A DNA stretch of 64,000 bases from Thermosynechococcus sichuanensis E542 (GTDB lineage: Bacteria; Cyanobacteriota; Cyanobacteriia; Thermosynechococcales; Thermosynechococcaceae), in the NCBI RefSeq assembly GCF_003555505.1, contig NZ_CP032152.1, positions 1,535,001-1,599,000 of the forward strand, written 5' to 3'. Under the pieces are notes generated by a model. That model was not told the origin of the DNA. It was given only the letters and a program-made list of their open reading frames with translations, and made no database searches. This document shows positions 36,562 to 49,878 of this stretch, in pieces. A program made the position numbers and the translations under genes. Within the stretch, counting starts at the first letter, position 1. The number at the start of each line of letters is the position of its first letter.

Positions 36562-37050
36562 ATGAGTGAACCACTAACGCGATCCGAATTGAGTCAAGTG
36601 TTGGATGCCATCCAAGGGATGCAGGCCAGTCTTCAGACCATAGAGAAAAAGCTGGATATTCACATTGCCACCAGTGGCGAGAGGTTCCAACGACTTGAGG
36701 ACAAAATTGATGCCGTTGAAGCGAAGTTAGAGCAGCGTATCAATGCTGTTGAGGCCAAACTGGAACAGCGTATCAATGCCGTTGAAGCGAAGCTAGAGCA
36801 GCGTATCAATGCTGTTGAGGCCAAACTGGAACAGCGTATCAATGCTGTTGAGGCGCAATTGTCGCAACGTATCAGCACTGTCGAGGGGCAATTAGGGCAG
36901 CGCATTGATACGGTGGAGGCCACATTGCAGCAAATTGTCAAACGGCAGGATGGAACCGATGCCCGTCTGTGGGGATTCTTAGTGACGCTGCTGGTGCTGG
37001 CTGCTGGCTTAATCACTAAGCTGCTGTTCTTTGACACGCCACGCCTTTGA
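36562..37050 (+). CDS. Coiled-coil membrane-tail protein with 11-residue repeats
   Basis: The 162-residue product has an N-terminal helix, then six consecutive 11-residue units of the form VEAKLEQRINA (about residues 53-118), giving a hendecad right-handed coiled coil, and a single membrane helix near the C-terminus (LWGFLVTLLVLAAGLITKLLFF). It resembles the many cyanobacterial tail-anchored coiled-coil proteins of unknown role. The DNA shows 33-bp units and a 66-bp duplication. ATG 36562 follows AAGGGGG-type purines. Confidence 0.7.
   Translation: MSEPLTRSELSQVLDAIQGMQASLQTIEKKLDIHIATSGERFQRLEDKIDAVEAKLEQRINAVEAKLEQRINAVEAKLEQRINAVEAKLEQRINAVEAQLSQRISTVEGQLGQRIDTVEATLQQIVKRQDGTDARLWGFLVTLLVLAAGLITKLLFFDTPRL
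36718..36915 (+). repeat. Tandem 33-bp repeats (six units)
   Basis: Six in-frame 33-bp units start at 36718, 36751, 36784, 36817, 36850 and 36883. Units 1-2 and 3-4 are nearly identical as a 66-bp pair, so a recent duplication of two units is likely; units 5-6 have diverged. Confidence 0.9.
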
Positions 37051-41755: not shown

Positions 41756-41802
41756 TAACAGCCCTTTTCTGAAATATAGCTATTCCAATAAAGAATGAGA
41801 CA

Positions 41803-42095
41803 TTATCCGGCATAGTAGTTGGGAATGATCCCAGTAAGAGAGCTGTTTGACCCTGCATACATCCGCGCTCGCTTCAACCCCCTAAAATCATGCTCAATCA
41901 CATTCAAATCACGAGAGTATTTTGTTCTTGGTAACGCATCTGTTTTTTTGCGGGTAACGTCTATCTGGTCGAGGGCATAACTAATCGTGGAAACTTGTAC
42001 CCCGAATCGCTGGGCACGGTCGATTTGCATGAGCAAGACATCGCCTTTTTCCTCCTTTAATGTATCCCATAGGTCAGAAAAGAGTTGTGTGTACC
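41803..42095 (-). pseudogene. Remnant of an IS630-family transposase
   Basis: The open frame keeps a helix-turn-helix piece (RAQRFGVQVSTISYALDQI then VTRKKT) joined directly to the C-terminal end of an IS630/Tc1-type transposase (KYSRDLNVIEHDFRGLKRAR, where the family reads YSPDLNPIEH and the Glu is the last DDE residue). About 200 central residues with the two catalytic Asp are deleted. The frame stays open to about 42095, where a terminal-repeat-like sequence of another element begins. Confidence 0.75.
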
Positions 42096-42113
42096 CAGAA
42101 GTGTTGAATCCTG
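42096..42113 (+). repeat. Stray copy of an IS end
   Basis: CAGAAGTGTTGAATCCTG is identical over 18 bases to the right end (inverted) of the 278-bp element at 44983-45260. It lies at the 3' boundary of the first beta-helix gene and at the edge of the IS630 remnant. Confidence 0.7.
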
Positions 42114-42117
42114 TCCC

Positions 42118-44889
42118 TCAAACTCCGTTCAATACTTGTGCATCTCCATTATCATAAACTTCACAACGATGGATTTTAGGATGACTATTTTGATCTTGAA
42201 TGTAGATTCCTGCTCCAGTATTTCCCCAAATGTTGCAGTCTTCAATCACACCACTGGCACCATCATGGATGAAGATTCCACCTGTTTTTCCCTCATGAAT
42301 CTGACAACGACGGATGGTGGGGTTGCTGTTGGCATTTCTAATCTCAACTCCCGCGAAAGCATTTCCCCAAATGTTGCAGTCTTCAATCACACCACTGGCA
42401 CCATCATGGATGAAGATTCCACTTGTTTTTCCCTCATGAATCTGACAACGACGGATGGTGGGGTTGCTGTTGGCATCTCTAATCCCAACTCCTGCGAAAG
42501 CATTGCCCCAAATGTTGCAGTCTTCAATCACACCACTGGCACCTGCACCAATGCCAATTCCACCTTGTTTTCCCTCATGAATCTGACAACGACGGATGGT
42601 GGGGTTGCTGTTGGCATCGAAAATCCCAACTCCTAGGTGAGCATTGCCCCAAATGTTGCAGTCTTCAATCACACCACTGGCACCTTTACTAATGCCAATT
42701 CCACCTCCTTGTCCTTCATGAATCTGACAACGACGGATGGTGGGGTTGCTGTTGGCATCGCTAATCCAAACTCCTGCCTCATTATTGCCCCAAATGTTAC
42801 ATTCTTCAATCACACCACTGGCACCTTCACCAATGCCAATTCCAACTCCTTGTCCCTCATGAATCTCACAACGACGGATGGTGGGGTTGCTGTTGGCATC
42901 GCCAATCTCAACTCCTGCGACAGCATTGCCCCAAATGTTACATTCTTCAATCACACCACTGGCACCTTCACCAATGCCAATTCCAACTCCTTGTCCCTCA
43001 TGAATCTCACAACGACGGATTGTGGGGTTGCTGTTGGCATCGCTAATCTCAACTCCTACGACAGCATTGCCCCAAATGTTACATTCTTCAATCACACCAC
43101 TGGCACCATCATGGATGAAGATTCCACTTTGTTTTCCCTCATGAATCTCACAACGACGGATTGTGGGGTTGCTGTTGGCATCACTAATCCCAACTTCTGC
43201 GAGAGCATTGCCCCAAATGTTGCAGTCTTCAATCACACCACTGGCACCTTCACCAATGATAATTCCAACTTCTTGTCCCTCATGAATCTCACAACGACGG
43301 ATTGTGGGATTGCTGTTGGCATCGCTAATCCCAACTCCTACGACAGCATTGCCCCAAATGTTGCAGTCTTCAATCACACCACTGGCACCATCATGGATGA
43401 AGATTCCACTTGTTTTTCCCTCATGAATCTGACAACGACGGATGGTGGGGTTGCTGTTGGCATCTCTAATCCTAACTCCTGCGAAAGCATTGCCCCAAAT
43501 GTTGCAGTCTTCAATCACACCACTGGCACCCTCACCAATCAAAATTCCATATTGTTCTCCCTCATGAATCTCACAACCACGGATTGTGGGGTTGCTGTTG
43601 GCATCGCTAATCTCAACTCCTACGACAGCATTGCCCCAAATGTTGCAGTCTTCAATCACACCACTGGCACCATCATGGATGAAGATTCCACTTGTTTTTC
43701 CCTCATGAATCTCACAACCACGGATGGTGGGGTTGCTGTTGGCATCGCTAATCCCAACTCCTACGACAGCATTGCCCCAAATGTTGCAGTCTTCAATCAC
43801 ACCACTGGCACCATCATGGATGAAGATTCCACTTGTTTTTCCCTCATGAATCTGACAACGACGGATGGTGGGGTTACTGTTGGCATCTCTAATCCTAACT
43901 CCTGCGAAAGCATTGCCCCAAATGTTGCAGTCTTCAATCACACCACTGGCACCCTCACCAATCAAAATTCCACTTGTTTTTCCCTCATGAATCTGACAAC
44001 GACGGATGGTGGGGTTGCTGTTGGCATGGATAATCCCAACTCCTGCGAGAGCATTGCCCCAAATGTTACATTCTTCAATCACACCACTGGCACCCTCATA
44101 GATGAGGATTCCTGCACTTTTGCTTTCATGGATATGGCAGCGGCGGATCACAGGATTGGTTCCTGAATTCTTAATAATAACTCCTACAAATGAACTGGAC
44201 TGAATGTCACAATCTTCTAAAATTAAACGACCTTGCTGAATATCTACGCAGGCATTCTCGCCATCATGGGTTGTTCTCAGGGTTAAATTGGCAACGCGGG
44301 CATTCGTAGTTTGCATCAAAATACAGGCGCTATCCTCAGTAACAAGAACGATCTCTGCTACTGGACCATCGCCAATAATTTCAACAGGTTTATTCAAAAT
44401 AAGACTTTCATGATACTGCCCCGGCTTGATGATAATTGTGCTGCCTGCGGGTACTGATGCGAGAGCCTCACGAATACTGCGGTAATCAGCACTGCCATAG
44501 GGGGCAACAGTCACTTGAGTCGTTTGCGGGGAAGTGACCTTGGATTGTGAGGGCGTGACCGAGATTGAGCGATCAGTACTGACTTGTCCAGAAATCCCCA
44601 GAGCAAAGGCCCAAGCTGACACCCCCAAGTGAGCTACTTCTTCCTGCAAGCCCGTTTCATGCATTAGAACCTGAGTCAAGCGACTAACCAGTAGAGCTGG
44701 ATCGCTCTGGCTATCCTGTAGCAGTTTTGTGGCGATACCCTGTTCTTGAGCAAGGATGACTGTGTTGACTTGCCAAGGTGGCAATTGATGGCACAAATCC
44801 CTGAGCAGAGCTTGCAGTTGGGTAGGACGATTGAGGAGGCTGCTATCCTTTTGCAGTTGCTGCCGCAGAATGTCGCTTATTGTGGTCAT
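42118..44889 (-). CDS. Right-handed beta-helix repeat protein, copy 1 (14 units)
   Basis: The 923-residue product has a helical N-terminal domain (about 1-105: TTISDILRQQLQKDSS, QLQALLRDLCHQLPPWQ), a low-complexity Ser/Thr linker, a pectate-lyase/DUF1565-like opening (YRSIREALASVPAGSTIIIKPGQYHES) and 14 copies of a 47-residue unit of form GASGVIEDCNIWGN-x3-GV-x-I-x2-AN-SNPTIRRCQIHEG-x3-GI-x-I. Each unit makes two coils of a parallel beta-helix with Cys at the same place in each coil. No signal peptide is seen, so it is probably cytoplasmic. ATG 44889 is preferred to a TTG five codons upstream. It is near-identical in its N-terminal third to copy 2. Confidence 0.85.
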   Translation of the reverse strand: MTTISDILRQQLQKDSSLLNRPTQLQALLRDLCHQLPPWQVNTVILAQEQGIATKLLQDSQSDPALLVSRLTQVLMHETGLQEEVAHLGVSAWAFALGISGQVSTDRSISVTPSQSKVTSPQTTQVTVAPYGSADYRSIREALASVPAGSTIIIKPGQYHESLILNKPVEIIGDGPVAEIVLVTEDSACILMQTTNARVANLTLRTTHDGENACVDIQQGRLILEDCDIQSSSFVGVIIKNSGTNPVIRRCHIHESKSAGILIYEGASGVIEECNIWGNALAGVGIIHANSNPTIRRCQIHEGKTSGILIGEGASGVIEDCNIWGNAFAGVRIRDANSNPTIRRCQIHEGKTSGIFIHDGASGVIEDCNIWGNAVVGVGISDANSNPTIRGCEIHEGKTSGIFIHDGASGVIEDCNIWGNAVVGVEISDANSNPTIRGCEIHEGEQYGILIGEGASGVIEDCNIWGNAFAGVRIRDANSNPTIRRCQIHEGKTSGIFIHDGASGVIEDCNIWGNAVVGVGISDANSNPTIRRCEIHEGQEVGIIIGEGASGVIEDCNIWGNALAEVGISDANSNPTIRRCEIHEGKQSGIFIHDGASGVIEECNIWGNAVVGVEISDANSNPTIRRCEIHEGQGVGIGIGEGASGVIEECNIWGNAVAGVEIGDANSNPTIRRCEIHEGQGVGIGIGEGASGVIEECNIWGNNEAGVWISDANSNPTIRRCQIHEGQGGGIGISKGASGVIEDCNIWGNAHLGVGIFDANSNPTIRRCQIHEGKQGGIGIGAGASGVIEDCNIWGNAFAGVGIRDANSNPTIRRCQIHEGKTSGIFIHDGASGVIEDCNIWGNAFAGVEIRNANSNPTIRRCQIHEGKTGGIFIHDGASGVIEDCNIWGNTGAGIYIQDQNSHPKIHRCEVYDNGDAQVLNGV
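42121..44094 (-). repeat. 141-bp tandem repeat array of copy 1
   Basis: Fourteen in-register 141-bp units run from 44094 down to 42121; first and last unit starts differ by exactly 13 x 141. Variation is concentrated in the three codons after NIWGN and the codons around the second coil turn, while the rest is nearly fixed. Confidence 0.95.
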
Positions 44890-44904
44890 TGATAAAGATG
44901 GCAA

Positions 44905-45325
44905 ATGTTTTATGTTAATCTATCAAGCCTAGCTTACCAAAAAAATTGGGTCTAAAGGGCGGCTTTATCTATTCCTCTAGGGGCAGAAGTGTTGAACGAC
45001 AGTTTGAAGGGGTAGAAAAAAGGGAAGAAATGTCGTATTCTTCCCTTAAAAGTTGAATGGGTTTAGTGTGACGGAGAATTTAACGAGTGAGGCGGTCAGG
45101 CATGACATCAGTTTTCGAGAAGAAGTGATAAAAATGATTCCCGATAATGCCGTAGCAATAATGGATGCGGTGTTCCATAGTGCATTGGAGCTTTGATTGG
45201 CAGCCAGAGCTACGTGTGGCTTAAAATGTTAGGTTGTGTTGCAGGATTCAACACTTCTGCTGTTTGACGGATTAAAGTATTTTTGTTAGATTAAGACGAA
45301 CTTTTTGTTAAGAAGTTTCACACCT
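44905..45325. other. Intergenic region between copy 1 and the 54-codon gene
   Basis: The first about 78 bases (44905-44982) are the upstream region of copy 1 and are nearly identical to those upstream of copy 2 (48021-48098), so they probably carry the promoter of both. The rest is the 278-bp inverted-repeat element and 65 bases of A/T-rich DNA before the small gene. Confidence 0.6.
44983..45260. mobile_element. 278-bp element with 14-bp terminal inverted repeats (MITE-like, IS4-type relic)
   Basis: GCAGAAGTGTTGAA at 44983-44996 is matched by its exact reverse complement at 45247-45260. Inside, a + strand frame reads DISFREEVIKMIPDNAVAIMDAVF, resembling the segment before the second catalytic Asp of IS4-type transposases, with the usual DRGF changed to DAVF and a stop soon after. 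It looks like an internally deleted insertion sequence that cannot move by itself. No clear target duplication was seen. Confidence 0.6.
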
Positions 45326-45490
45326 ATGAGCCTGCGCCAGTATGTTGTGCTTTACAAGCTGCCAGGTGATCAAGTGCGATCGCCTCGGAAGCAGGTTATC
45401 GAAGCTAATAGCCCTAGCGATGCTGTCAAGGTTTTCAAAAGCATGATGCCTGAGGCAATTGTCCTAGGCCAGCCACAACTCCTTCGCTAA
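45326..45490 (+). CDS. Small unrecognised protein (54 aa)
   Basis: The product (MSLRQYVVLYKLPGDQVRSP at the start) has a beta-alpha-beta look: VVLYKLP, then SPSDAVKVFKSMMP and EAIVLGQPQLLR. No family recognised. It contains a HIP1 octamer near 45376, unlike the flanking repeat genes, so it may be older in the chromosome than they are. The ATG at 45326 is chosen over an upstream in-frame codon. It is flanked by the inverted-repeat element and copy 2. Confidence 0.55.
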   Translation: MSLRQYVVLYKLPGDQVRSPRKQVIEANSPSDAVKVFKSMMPEAIVLGQPQLLR

Positions 45491-45505
45491 AGAGACAATG
45501 TTCGT

Positions 45506-45548
45506 AGGCGCAGGTACCCTTGACAAGGTGGACTTTCGACTTGCGCCT
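45506..45548. other. Imperfect stem-loop between the small gene and copy 2
   Basis: AGGCGCA (45506-45512) and TGCGCCT (45542-45548) could pair around a 29-base loop that holds a smaller CCTT/AAGG stem. There is no T run after it, so it is not a typical terminator. The remaining bases to 45644 show no gene. Confidence 0.3.
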
Positions 45549-45644
45549 CATCTATTTGAACTCTTTGCACGGTCTTTAACAATGTTGAAGTCTTCCATCC
45601 CTGTGTAGTTCAGGCGCTACAAAATTATCATTGCTCACCTTACT

Positions 45645-48005
45645 CTATCTTTGTGAAAAAAACGGATTCCATCGGGAGGGTTGAATCCTGTCCCTAACTT
45701 CACAACGACGGATTTTAGGATGACTATTTTGATCTAGAATGTAGATTCCTGCTACAGTATTTCCCCAAATGTTGCAGTCTTCAATCACACCACTGGCACC
45801 CTCACCAATGATAATTCCATGTTGTTTTCCCTCATGAATCTGACAACGACGGATGGTGGGGTTGCTGTTGACATGGATAATCCCAACTCCTGCGAGAGCA
45901 TTGCCCCAAATGTTGCAGTCTTCAATCACACCACTGGCGCCATCATGGATGAAGATTCCAAATTGTTCTTCCTCATGAATCTGACAACGACGGATGGTGG
46001 GGTTGCTGTTGGCATCTCTAATCGTAACTCCTGCTTCATTATTTCCCCAAATGTTGCAGTCTTCAATCACACCACTGGCACCCTCACCAATGATAATTCC
46101 ACGTTGTTTTCCCTCATGAATCTGACAACGACGGATGGTGGGGTTGCTGTTAGCATAGGCAATCCCAACTCCTATGACAGCATCGCCCCAAATGTTGCAG
46201 TCTTCAATCACACCACTGGCACCAAGATGAATCAAAATTCCGCCTTGTTTTCCCTCATGAATCTCACAACGACGGATGGTGGGGTTGCTGTTGGCATCTC
46301 TAATGTAAACTCCTGCTCTAGTATTTCCCCAAATGTTGCAGTCTTCAATCACACCACTGGCACCCTCACCAATCCAAATTCCACATTCTTCTCCCTCATG
46401 AATCTGACAACGACGGATGGTGGGGTTACTGTTGGCATCTCTAATCCCAACTCCTGCGAGAGCATTGCCCCAAATGTTGCAGTCTTCAATCACACCACTG
46501 GCACCCTCACCAATGATAATTCCACGTTGTTTTCCCTCATGAATCTGACAACGACGGATGGTGGGGTTGCTGTTGGCATTGCTAATCAAAACTCCTGCTT
46601 CATTATTGCCCCAAATGTTGCAGTCTTCAATCACACCACTGGCACCCTCACCAATCCAAATTCCACATTCTTCTCCCTCATGAATCTGACAACGACGGAT
46701 GGTGGGGTTGCTGTTGACATGGATAATCCCAACTCCTGCGAGAGCATTGCCCCAAATGTTGCAGTCTTCAATCACACCACTGGCACCCTCACCAATGATA
46801 ATTCCATTTGTTTTTCCCTCATGAATCTCACAACGACGGATGGTGGGGTTGCTGTTGGCATTGCTAATCAAAACTCCTGCTTCATTATTTCCCCAAATGT
46901 TGCAGTCTTCAATCACACCACTGGCACCCTCACCAATCCAAATTCCACATTCTTCTCCCTCATGAATCTGACAACGACGGATGGTGGGGTTGCTGTTGAC
47001 ATGGATAATCCCAACTCCTGCGAGAGCATTGCCCCAAATGTTGCAGTCTTCAATCACACCACTGGCACCCTCACCAATGATAATTCCATTTGTTTTTCCC
47101 TCATGAATCTCACAACGACGGATGGTGGGGTTGCTGTTGGCATTGCTAATCTGAACTCCTGCGAAAGCATTGCCCCAAATGTTGCAGTCTTCAATCACAC
47201 CACTGGCACCCTCACGAATGAGGATTCCTGCACTTTTGCTTTCATGGATATGGCAGCGGCGGATCACAGGATTGGTTCCTGAATTCTTAATAATAACTCC
47301 TACAAATGAACTGGACTGAATGTCACAATCTTCTAAAATTAAACGACCTTGCTGAATATCTACGCAGGCATTCTCGCCATCATGGGTTGTTCTCAGGGTT
47401 AAATTGGCAACGCGGGCATTCGTAGTTTGCATCAAAATACAGGCGCTATCCTCAGTAACAAGAACGATCTCTGCTACTGAACCATCACCAATAATTTCAA
47501 CAGGTTTATTCAAAATAAGACTTTCATGATACTGCCCCGGCTTGATGATAATTGTGCTGCCTGCGGGTACTGATGCGAGAGCCTCACGAATACTGCGGTA
47601 ATCAGCACTGCCATAGGGGGCAACAGTCACTTGAGTCGTTTGCGGGGAAGTGACCTTGGATTGTGAGGGCGTGACCGAGATTGAGCGATCAGTACTGACT
47701 TGTCCAGAAATCCCCAGAGCAAAGGCCCAAGCTGACACCCCCAAGCGAGCTACTTCTTCCTGCAAGCCCGTTTCATGCATTAGAACCTGAGTCAAGCGAC
47801 TAACCAGTAGAGCTGGATCGCTCTGGCTATCCTGTAGCAGTTTTGTGGGGATACCCTGTTTTTGAGCAAGGATGACTGTGTTGACTTGCCAAGGTGGCAA
47901 TTGATGGCACAAATCCCTGAGCAGAGCTTGCAGTTGGGTAGGACGATTGAGGAGGCTGCTATCCTTTTGCAGTTGCTGCCGCAGAATATCGCTTATTGTG
48001 GTCAT
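45645..48005 (-). CDS. Right-handed beta-helix repeat protein, copy 2 (11 units)
   Basis: The 786-residue product has the same layout as copy 1: helical N-terminal domain, Ser/Thr linker, DUF1565-like opening, then 11 of the 47-residue beta-helix units. Only a few residues differ from copy 1 in the first 240. The C-terminus differs: after CEV the copy 1 ending (YDNGDAQ...) is lost by a deletion of about 36 bp and replaced by the unrelated tail RDRIQPSRWNPFFSQR read from former downstream DNA. Whether this affects capping of the helix is unknown. ATG 48005 is preferred to an upstream TTG. Confidence 0.85.
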   Translation of the reverse strand: MTTISDILRQQLQKDSSLLNRPTQLQALLRDLCHQLPPWQVNTVILAQKQGIPTKLLQDSQSDPALLVSRLTQVLMHETGLQEEVARLGVSAWAFALGISGQVSTDRSISVTPSQSKVTSPQTTQVTVAPYGSADYRSIREALASVPAGSTIIIKPGQYHESLILNKPVEIIGDGSVAEIVLVTEDSACILMQTTNARVANLTLRTTHDGENACVDIQQGRLILEDCDIQSSSFVGVIIKNSGTNPVIRRCHIHESKSAGILIREGASGVIEDCNIWGNAFAGVQISNANSNPTIRRCEIHEGKTNGIIIGEGASGVIEDCNIWGNALAGVGIIHVNSNPTIRRCQIHEGEECGIWIGEGASGVIEDCNIWGNNEAGVLISNANSNPTIRRCEIHEGKTNGIIIGEGASGVIEDCNIWGNALAGVGIIHVNSNPTIRRCQIHEGEECGIWIGEGASGVIEDCNIWGNNEAGVLISNANSNPTIRRCQIHEGKQRGIIIGEGASGVIEDCNIWGNALAGVGIRDANSNPTIRRCQIHEGEECGIWIGEGASGVIEDCNIWGNTRAGVYIRDANSNPTIRRCEIHEGKQGGILIHLGASGVIEDCNIWGDAVIGVGIAYANSNPTIRRCQIHEGKQRGIIIGEGASGVIEDCNIWGNNEAGVTIRDANSNPTIRRCQIHEEEQFGIFIHDGASGVIEDCNIWGNALAGVGIIHVNSNPTIRRCQIHEGKQHGIIIGEGASGVIEDCNIWGNTVAGIYILDQNSHPKIRRCEVRDRIQPSRWNPFFSQR
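45660..47210 (-). repeat. 141-bp tandem repeat array of copy 2, with a 282-bp internal duplication
   Basis: Eleven in-register 141-bp units; first and last unit starts (47210 and 45800) differ by exactly 10 x 141. Blocks 46578-46859 and 46860-47141 are the same two units repeated, with one base difference that I could find (ATTGCCCC versus ATTTCCCC), so the array grew recently. Confidence 0.95.
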
Positions 48006-48231
48006 TGATAAAGATGGCAAATGTTTTATGTTAATCTATCAAGCCTAGCTTACCAAGAAACTGGGTCTAAAGGGCGGCTTTATCTATTCCTCTAGGGGAT
48101 ATGCTAGTCAGAGAAGCCAAGCTCCTGCACGGGTCTCGAGAGCAATACCAAAGGTGAGCGGATATTTTCGTGTCGTCCCCCTCAATTGCCTGCGAGGTTT
48201 GTAAACTGGGTCGAAGAGACTCACTCCTCAC

Positions 48232-49878
48232 TTATTGCCAGCGGCACAACCAAAGAAAGCGGAGCCAACTGCGCAGGAGTGCCAAACCCGCGAGTGCTGC
48301 TACTGTAAAAAGAGCGATCGCCCCCCCTAGAGCTTTGGCTGACCACAACATTGCTCCTGCCAAGAGGGTAAAACCAGCCAATCCTAAATAGACTAAGCAA
48401 ATCAACAAACTCTCAATGCGCCGCAGTTGCCGCTCCATTGTGGGATTGCGCACCGATAGTTGCAGTTCGCCGCGAGCTAAGCGATCCTCTAACTGTTGCA
48501 GCCGTACTTCAACTCGACTAGGCTGCTGTAATCGCCGGTTGATCAGCGTTTGGGTTTGGTGAATCAGTTCTCGCCACCCCCCCCGCGAGTGACGCATCAA
48601 TTCCTTGACAAAGGGTTGAGCCGCCGCACTTAGGTTGTACTCAGGGTCTAAACTGCGGGCAATGCCATCGAGGGTGGTCAGTGACTTGAGAATATAGGTC
48701 ATCTTTGCAGGTAGGCGAAAGGGTTGCTGCTCAAAAAGGGCATACACATCCTGTTGCAATTCCTTAAAGGCGGTTAAATCCACAGGCCGTTCGGTAAATC
48801 GATCTAGAATTAATTGCATAATCCGTTGCAGGGGTACTCTGTCGGTGACAGGCATCAACAGCCCCAGTTCAATCAAAGCAGCAATCACGCGATCGCTATC
48901 CTTTTGCAGCACGGCAAAAAATGTTTGAATCATCTGTTGCTGGCTGAGGGCAGGGACTTCTGTCATCATGCCGTAGTCATAGAAGATGAGATCGCCCTCT
49001 TTTGTGACCGCCAAATTCCCCGGATGGGGGTCAGCATGGAAAAAACCATCAATCAATAACTGTTTGAGATAGCAACAAATCCCCCGTTGATTAATCTCTT
49101 GGGGATTCAAGCCAAAAGCCTCAATCGCAGCTCGATTGTCAATGCGAATGCCGGGGAGATACTCCATCGTTAGGACGTAGCGGCAGGTGTGTGTCCAATA
49201 GACCTTGGGGACGCGGATATGGGGGTCTTGGGCAAAGTTGGCACGAAAGCGATCGGCATTTTGCCCCTCTTGCACATAGTCAATTTCCCGCAGTAGGATA
49301 CTAAAAAACTCCTCATAGATGTCTTGCAGCGCATAGGGACGAAGAAAGGGGAGCCAGCGATCGCCCCAGCGAATCAATTCCCCAATGGCCAGATAGTCCA
49401 GATACAGTTGCGCCTCTAGGTGTGGCCGTTGTACCTTTACCACCACCTCTTCACCACTATGGAGCGTTGCGCGATGGACTTGGCCAAGACTGGCAGCGGC
49501 AAGGGGTCTAGGATCAAATCTGGCGTAGAGATCCCCAAGGGACTGCCCCAAGTGCTGCTCAATGAGGGCGATCGCCTGTCGTGAGTCAAAGGGCGGCACC
49601 TGATCCTGTAGTTTCCTCAGCGCCTCAATATAGGTGGGGGGCAATAGATCAAACCGAGTCGAGAGAAATTGGCCGATTTTAATAAACGTCGGCCCCAAGA
49701 CTAATAATTGCTGTACGAGCCAACGGGCACGCTGAGACTGGGCGCGATCGCTCTGCCGCCGCCAAGCATAATCCCACAGCAGTTGACTACCAAAGCGCCC
49801 CAAGATTCCCACAATTTGGCTGACACGGCGCAAAAGGAGCCAACGACTTGGACGGTAGGTAGAGGTAGTCACCAGCAT
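48232..49878 (-). CDS. ABC1/UbiB-family atypical kinase
   Basis: The 548-residue product has the ABC1/UbiB hallmarks: the KxGQ motif in [27 protein letters not shown] replacing the usual nucleotide loop (Ala-rich), VVVKVQRP with the ATP Lys, [32 protein letters not shown] with the metal Asp, and two C-terminal membrane segments. Members support quinone synthesis or lipid-soluble antioxidant metabolism in bacteria and plastids, and cyanobacteria carry several. The specific quinone or lipid target is not known. The 211-base region upstream of copy 2 (48021-48231) separates it from the repeat island. Confidence 0.92.

Follow-up and report, generated by a model that had tools for sequence, protein, structure and literature searches.

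Effector-associated domains (EADs) are presented by Kaur et al. as modular adaptors of conflict systems in the passages of their papers drawn on here (PMC7159879; PMC8195603), and TerY-P-like triads with an OB-fold kinase are given as stand-alone antiphage systems in a passage of PMC11090510 that cites Gao 2020. Our study concerns two adjacent genes, A and B, in a window of 64,000 nucleotides (the whole stretch of DNA that was analysed) from Thermosynechococcus sichuanensis E542. Their common N-terminal domain (N-domain) resembles the EADs and bDLDs of those passages (PMC7159879, PMC8195603) in being small, helical, non-catalytic and terminal, in occurring in several copies per operon or genome that are most alike within a locus, and in being joined to FGE, TPR/Sel1-like, WD40 and Hsp70-type modules in large or filamentous bacteria. 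Unlike the EADs as described there, the N-domain has a TerY-type vWA, a PP2C and a kinase as its core rather than MoxR/VMAP, a GTPase or trypsin. Homotypic binding of the N-domain is putative, and none of nine divergent members matched the Pfam EAD models at E ≤10; a remote kinship is possible. N-domain genes adjoin two or three genes of the TerY-P triad (Anantharaman 2012 and Gao 2020, as far as PMC11090510 relates them) in Methylomonas, Thiotrichaceae, Thiomargarita and Parabeggiatoa, whereas the window genome encodes no N-domain protein besides the beta-helix proteins A and B, and no TerY-like vWA was found in it at E ≤1e-3, nor by a profile of four members at E ≤1e-15.

The repeats of A and B recall a different group of systems. 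Like the fungal hnwd, het-d and het-e WD40 NLRs (PMC4986451, PMC12222747), they form reshuffled arrays of near-identical tandem units in which positive selection acts on a small number of exposed, hypervariable positions, but their predicted scaffold is a right-handed beta-helix and they lack a NACHT/NB-ARC ATPase. Fold and repeat consensus are those of NosD, Pfam Beta_helix and TIGR03804; unlike the periplasmic copper-binding NosD, A and B have an extra N-domain, a hypervariable face and no signal peptide. In principle, their putative binding surface is also like that of the lamprey VLR LRR solenoid and of NLR-type WD40/TPR arrays. We found no hypervariable beta-helix receptor of bacteria in the literature, and the 'helix' passages of Kaur 2020 (PMC7159879) deal with helix-turn-helix motifs and transmembrane (TM) helices, not beta-helices. 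Judged from their sequences, there is about an even chance that A and B are a diversifying cytosolic receptor pair in which a beta-helix scaffold is combined with an EAD-like adaptor. To our knowledge, only a small set of diversifying recognition scaffolds has been described (LRR, WD40, TPR, C-type lectin and immunoglobulin). If this reading is true, a beta-helix that leaves six positions of each coil free beside a two-residue GI anchor would add a naturally combinatorial and probably heat-stable one.

The repeat unit and its variable face

The two genes share one layout (Table 1), in which a Ser/Thr/Gln-rich linker separates the N-domain from a pectinesterase-like beta-helix cap. Tandem Repeats Finder reported a period of 141 at 42208-44112 in A (13.5 copies) and at 45747-47228 in B (10.5 copies), and protein parsing resolved 13 and 10 canonical units of 47 aa, respectively, each array having one diverged first unit in addition. 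The totals of 14 and 11 units, after which a partial cap follows, are those that a previous sequence-only reading of this DNA had counted. Its description of each unit as two coils with a stacked Cys and Asn-rich turns was likewise confirmed, as an invariant, inward Cys occupies position 9 in coil 1 and position 32 in coil 2, and the Asn-rich turn reads NSNP. The ORF caller placed a TTG start five codons upstream in both genes, and for B the ATG at 48005 (MTTISDIL...) is more likely. Plus-strand open frames run antisense to the arrays at 42637-44166 (509 aa) and 45819-47282 (487 aa); these are probably not genes and arise from a stop-free frame of the 141-bp unit.

Table 1. Coordinates of genes A and B, their parts and the surrounding elements in the window
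Feature	Position	Strand	Remarks
Insert with both genes	41764-48232		6,469 bp, between convergent DUF3593 gene and ABC1-kinase gene
Decayed IS remnant	41764-42117	minus	Related fragments elsewhere in genome, 71-91 %
Gene A	42118-44889	minus	923 aa; 14 x 47-aa units after N-domain, linker and beta-helix cap
A, repeat array	42190-44163	minus	1 diverged + 13 canonical 141-bp units
A, N-terminal helical adaptor domain	44590-44889	minus	~100 aa, terminating in WAxALG motif
A, upstream (promoter/leader) duplicated segment	44905-44983	minus	96 % identical to B 48021-48098
MITE-like element between A and B	44984-45259		Inverted ends CAGAAGTGTTGAA.../...TTCAACACTTCTG
Gene B	45645-48005	minus	786 aa; layout as in A, but 11 x 47-aa units
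B, repeat array	45729-47279	minus	1 diverged + 10 canonical 141-bp units; beta-helix pLDDT mostly 77-93
B, N-terminal helical adaptor domain	47706-48005	minus	AF2 mean pLDDT 88
B, upstream (promoter/leader) duplicated segment	48021-48098	minus	Pair over 79 bp

When a position was called variable if it held three or more residues across the canonical units, variation was confined to positions 15, 16, 17, 20, 22 and 23 of coil 1 and positions 38, 39, 40, 43, 45 and 46 of coil 2, with position 47 mildly variable too, in keeping with the few variable positions per coil claimed before. Both coils vary at equal offsets around a conserved G-I/V (xxx-GI-x-I-xx), and the chance of six of 23 offsets coinciding exactly between the coils is about 1e-5. 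The pN/pS value was 3.02 at the 12 variable codons, compared with 0.21 elsewhere in the units, although picking variable sites inflates pN, and independently chosen sites were therefore tested. Coil-1 positions projected onto coil 2 gave a pN/pS of 2.61, and the offsets derived from the window gave 1.61 (0.30 for the rest) across 30 units from two unrelated beta-helix proteins of the congener G006. Among the 12 variable codons, the first codon position was polymorphic in all 12, the second in ten and the third in seven; at unit position 17, 22 of the 23 codons end in T, whereas the two preceding bases are highly diverse. The aliphatic residues of GI-x-I are near-invariant and should point inward, with the variable residues outward or in the adjoining turns, a facing that was deduced from alternation with the invariant, inward Ile and not from model coordinates.

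The G006 pair comprises beta-helix proteins of 1,706 aa (L068:8566-13686) and 812 aa (L069:9039-11477), encoded about 70 kb apart. They have a 46-residue homogenised unit and a common, helical-looking N-terminal domain that differs from that of A and B and whose first 229 residues gave no Pfam match, and their variable positions lie at offsets from the GI motif that match those of A and B. A diversity-generating retroelement, or adenine-directed mutagenesis in general, was considered as the source of the variation and does not fit, because 14 adenines in 18 invariant codons, AAC included, never vary and the variable codons carry all four bases; the scaffold is also a beta-helix and not a C-type lectin.

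The proposal that the N-domains and about 80 bp of upstream DNA are products of a recent duplication held up, with six differences between A and B in the first 780 nt (the non-repeat part) and a near-identical upstream segment (Table 1). On average, 71 % of variable residues differed between units of A and units of B, and 62 % within one gene. An exact internal block of 261 nt is duplicated two units apart in B, and coil-1 and coil-2 variants are re-paired in 20 combinations among 23 units. Taken together, the near-identical N-parts against diverged units, the block duplication and the coil re-pairing point to arrays in which units are duplicated, lost and converted at a higher pace than the remainder of the gene changes, unless conversion homogenised the N-parts too.

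It could be argued that these are homogenised repeats whose unconstrained, exposed turn positions drift neutrally and have no role in recognition, as units expand by block duplication, repeats often evolve fast and the variable residues sit in turns and at outward strand positions. However, amino-acid change exceeds synonymous change at the patch, and does so for the coil-2 sites chosen from coil 1 and for the G006 pair, and positions inferred to be exposed on other faces (T5, R7, H12, E13, E30 and W35) are invariant, which makes neutral drift unlikely. In a diversifying receptor, each coil would present an identical six-residue patch on one face, and the shuffling of units by duplication, loss and conversion, with selection diversifying the patch, would create a long and changeable binding surface. 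The ligand-recognition ladder suggested by the sequence-only reading is favoured by this one-face, mostly amino-acid-changing variation, and by the fusion of the N-domain to LRR, WD40 and FGE modules beside kinase-phosphatase triads.

Fold and location of the products

Pfam model PF13229 (Beta_helix) matched along the arrays with 588 bits in A (E 7e-179) and 466 bits in B (E 4e-141), against a cut-off of 25.9, and TIGR03804 matched with 123 and 85 bits, respectively (cut-off 19.45). The AF2 full-length model, in which the N-domain had low confidence, showed regular strands through residues 245-772 with pLDDT values of mostly 77-93 in the repeats, so that the structure prediction recommended earlier returned a regular solenoid. 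The nearest PDB folds to the array were beta-helix lyases, at an E-value of about 1e-3. On the strength of the profiles and the model, the arrays of A and B are predicted to form a right-handed parallel beta-helix (solenoid). The previous statement that no family with a stated function could be found thus fails for the repeats, which are of the Pfam Beta_helix/NosD type, and stands for the N-domain, to which no Pfam, NCBIfam or PADLOC model corresponds and for which context elsewhere is informative. Pfam returned only beta-helix families and weak matches for A and B, with no NTPase domain (NACHT/NB-ARC/STAND); the weak matches (Treslin_STD, YopH_N and similar) were below cut-off or spurious and were discarded. 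An identification of A and B as NosD was also rejected, given scores of 43.2 and 46.8 bits against a cut-off of 300, coverage of 119 of 377 positions and no export signal.

The highest 19-residue Kyte-Doolittle mean was 0.44 among the N-terminal 60 residues and 1.28 along the entire protein, and neither a signal peptide nor a TM segment was seen in A or B, as had been noted for the signal peptide. Each protein contains 30-33 Cys without a pairing pattern. We infer a cytosolic location for both, which fits because of the missing signal peptide and TM segment and the 30-33 Cys.

A secreted or periplasmic beta-helix (CASH/NosD/pectin-lyase) that binds carbohydrate or modifies polysaccharide, for instance as an adhesin, a shield or an enzyme, would account for fold matches to polysaccharide lyases and phage tailspikes and for a cap that resembles pectinesterase N-termini. 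This explanation is improbable for proteins that have no signal peptide or TM segment and 30-33 Cys, whose array is covered by no enzyme family (NosD reaching 43-47 bits of the required 300), and whose N-domain is found elsewhere in kinase/phosphatase operons. The surface shield offered as the second possible function by the sequence-only reading is disfavoured on the same grounds of absent signal peptide, absent TM segment and about 30 Cys without a pairing pattern.

The N-terminal domain and its partners

AF2 modelled the isolated N-domain (105 aa) as a helical bundle with a pLDDT of 88. No convincing model of it was found in Pfam, NCBIfam or PADLOC, and no convincing PADLOC match was obtained for A or B. 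Fold searches with the domain gave no reliable match, the best Foldseek E-value being 1.2 and the best VIA Z 5.6, the latter to the C-terminal domain of spider silk. Bcl-2-like matches had Z values of 2.5-4.5, inside the tool's stated noise, and we therefore claim neither a death-like nor a Bcl-2 fold.

Single-sequence searches at E ≤0.01 detected the N-domain in five of 386 cyanobacterial genomes, one of them marginal, and the fusions were to FGE-type domains (G060, G073 and G066), Hsp70 (G178) and a membrane protein (G022). In the G178 fusion (L061:1391-3463) a frameshift or stop apparently separates the remainder of Hsp70. Outside cyanobacteria, a named scan of Thiomargarita, Parabeggiatoa and Thiotrichaceae MAGs found the N-domain fused to leucine-rich repeats; the degenerate pattern used for N-domain scans was built from a two-member alignment, a six-member version being too diverse. 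On the Methylomonas plasmid CP157007 (L105:8517-15946), a record that carries no annotation, five consecutive N-domain genes lie directly downstream of genes for a Ser/Thr kinase, a vWA and a PP2C, and the N-domains of these five are joined to Sel1, Tim44-like, Clp_N or ClpX-zinc-finger modules or to unassigned tails. A Parabeggiatoa cluster (L123) encodes a kinase, an N-domain-FGE protein, a PP2C and a vWA together with three further N-domain membrane proteins, and L122 encodes a kinase, an N-domain-TM-FGE protein, a PP2C and a vWA.

Across the sulfur-bacteria order (Thiotrichales-type), 26 of 42 genomes carry the N-domain, in up to seven copies each, fused to LRR, FGE, MORN and membrane segments and, by eye, to Lcl/DUF1566-type and WD40 modules. 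Triad genes adjoin the N-domain at L105, L122 and L123, and in part at L127, L128, L133, L135, L154 and L155; marginal matches (E 1e-2 to 1e-5), namely the Clp-type ORF L041, L071/L072 and the 413-aa ORFs of the f44 genomes, were left out. A close TerY-like vWA occurred in 13 of the 26 N-domain-positive genomes and in none of the 16 negative ones (Fisher P 5e-4, with shared ancestry ignored), and counting a distant vWA match in the N-domain-negative G465 changed this value to 6e-3. In the half of the positive genomes that have no vWA, the N-domain is often on membrane proteins. The PADLOC TerY model matched the vWA of these relatives weakly (E about 1e-3). Gene neighbourhoods and fusions indicate that the N-domain is a modular adaptor of TerY-P-like triads in other bacteria, outside the Pfam EAD models.

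If A and B are receptors, their N-terminal helical bundle would play the role of an effector-associated domain, linking recognition modules to a vWA-PP2C-Ser/Thr-kinase switch, and a ligand bound to the beta-helix would be signalled by adaptor-adaptor or adaptor-kinase contact. The role would most likely be defence against phage or other invaders. We infer that A and B bind a ligand, signal homotypically, serve in conflict and use a partner in this genome, and the main weakness of the mechanism is the absence of a TerY-like vWA from this genome. The search for conserved N-domain partners advised by the sequence-only reading therefore succeeded in other bacteria, in the form of the triads, but not here. 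Three PP2C-type phosphatases are encoded by the window genome; A and B may act as a pair, may use a resident Ser/Thr kinase and PP2C, which is pure speculation, or may be stranded cargo.

The same partners would suit a conserved signalling or stress component, or a substrate, of the kinase/phosphatase type that scaffolds host proteins, its diversity reflecting different host partners. The N-domain is fused to Hsp70, Clp_N, ClpX-zinc-finger and Tim44-like modules beside kinase-PP2C-vWA genes, and in the congener G010 (L067:8769-10844) a Ser/Thr kinase carries a right-handed beta-helix as its C-terminal part, with a cap in the style of A and B; beta-helix modules seem to recur among the signalling-type proteins of the genus. 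However, A and B lie on an insert of one species in the genus and have no pathway neighbours, and house-keeping scaffolds rarely show hypervariation on one face. We consider a conserved signalling role improbable as well, and rank it next after a carbohydrate-related one.

A diversifying receptor pair would also raise a broader and more tentative possibility, to which we lean less than to the receptor pair itself, of a novel type of diversifying receptor in prokaryotes that combines a shuffled, positively selected one-face beta-helix (twice in this genus) with a new adaptor plugging into the vWA-PP2C-kinase switches of large sulfur bacteria, methanotrophs and cyanobacteria. The N-domain would then connect many orphan proteins of Beggiatoa-type giant bacteria, with LRR, WD40, FGE or chaperone-like parts, to one kinase-phosphatase switch, and this link makes sensing by TerY-P-type triads directly testable.

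The insert and its surroundings

Both genes lie on an insert (Table 1) in an otherwise conserved junction and were probably acquired recently. The insert has a GC content of 46.7 %, compared with 53.9 % in the remaining window, and A and B are absent from all ten other congeneric genomes, each species being represented by one genome. The junction is empty in seven of these ten Thermosynechococcus-like species, the flanks abutting exactly in G005 and lying 12-19 bp apart in G002, G004, G006, G007, G008 and G009, while in G003 and G010 the DUF3593 and ABC1-kinase genes are located elsewhere. In G001 (L080, L081) the junction is a rearrangement breakpoint, so that recombination may be frequent at this site.

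Remnants of IS and MITE-like elements lie beside and between A and B, as expected from the insertion-rich island described previously, and the C-termini of both genes end near element ends. The right end of the MITE-like element (45180-45260, about 80 bp) has multiple copies across the genome, at 83-98 % identity, and its 18-bp end sequence recurs within the IS remnant at 42096-42113. Translation of this remnant presumably represents the C-terminus of an IS630-type transposase, which it resembles. It is very improbable that A and B are decaying mobile cargo that hitch-hiked with IS elements and is now non-functional, since in spite of the IS/MITE remnants near both 3' ends and the lack of partner genes both long frames are intact, the N-parts of A and B differ little and the constant codons have a pN/pS of 0.21. 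A phage origin is without support, as neither the whole protein nor the N-domain pattern retrieved a relative from IMG/VR. Elsewhere in the window, a coding tandem repeat of 33/66 bp (about five copies of the 33-bp unit) is present at 36710-36922, within a coiled-coil-like protein encoded at 36562-37050.
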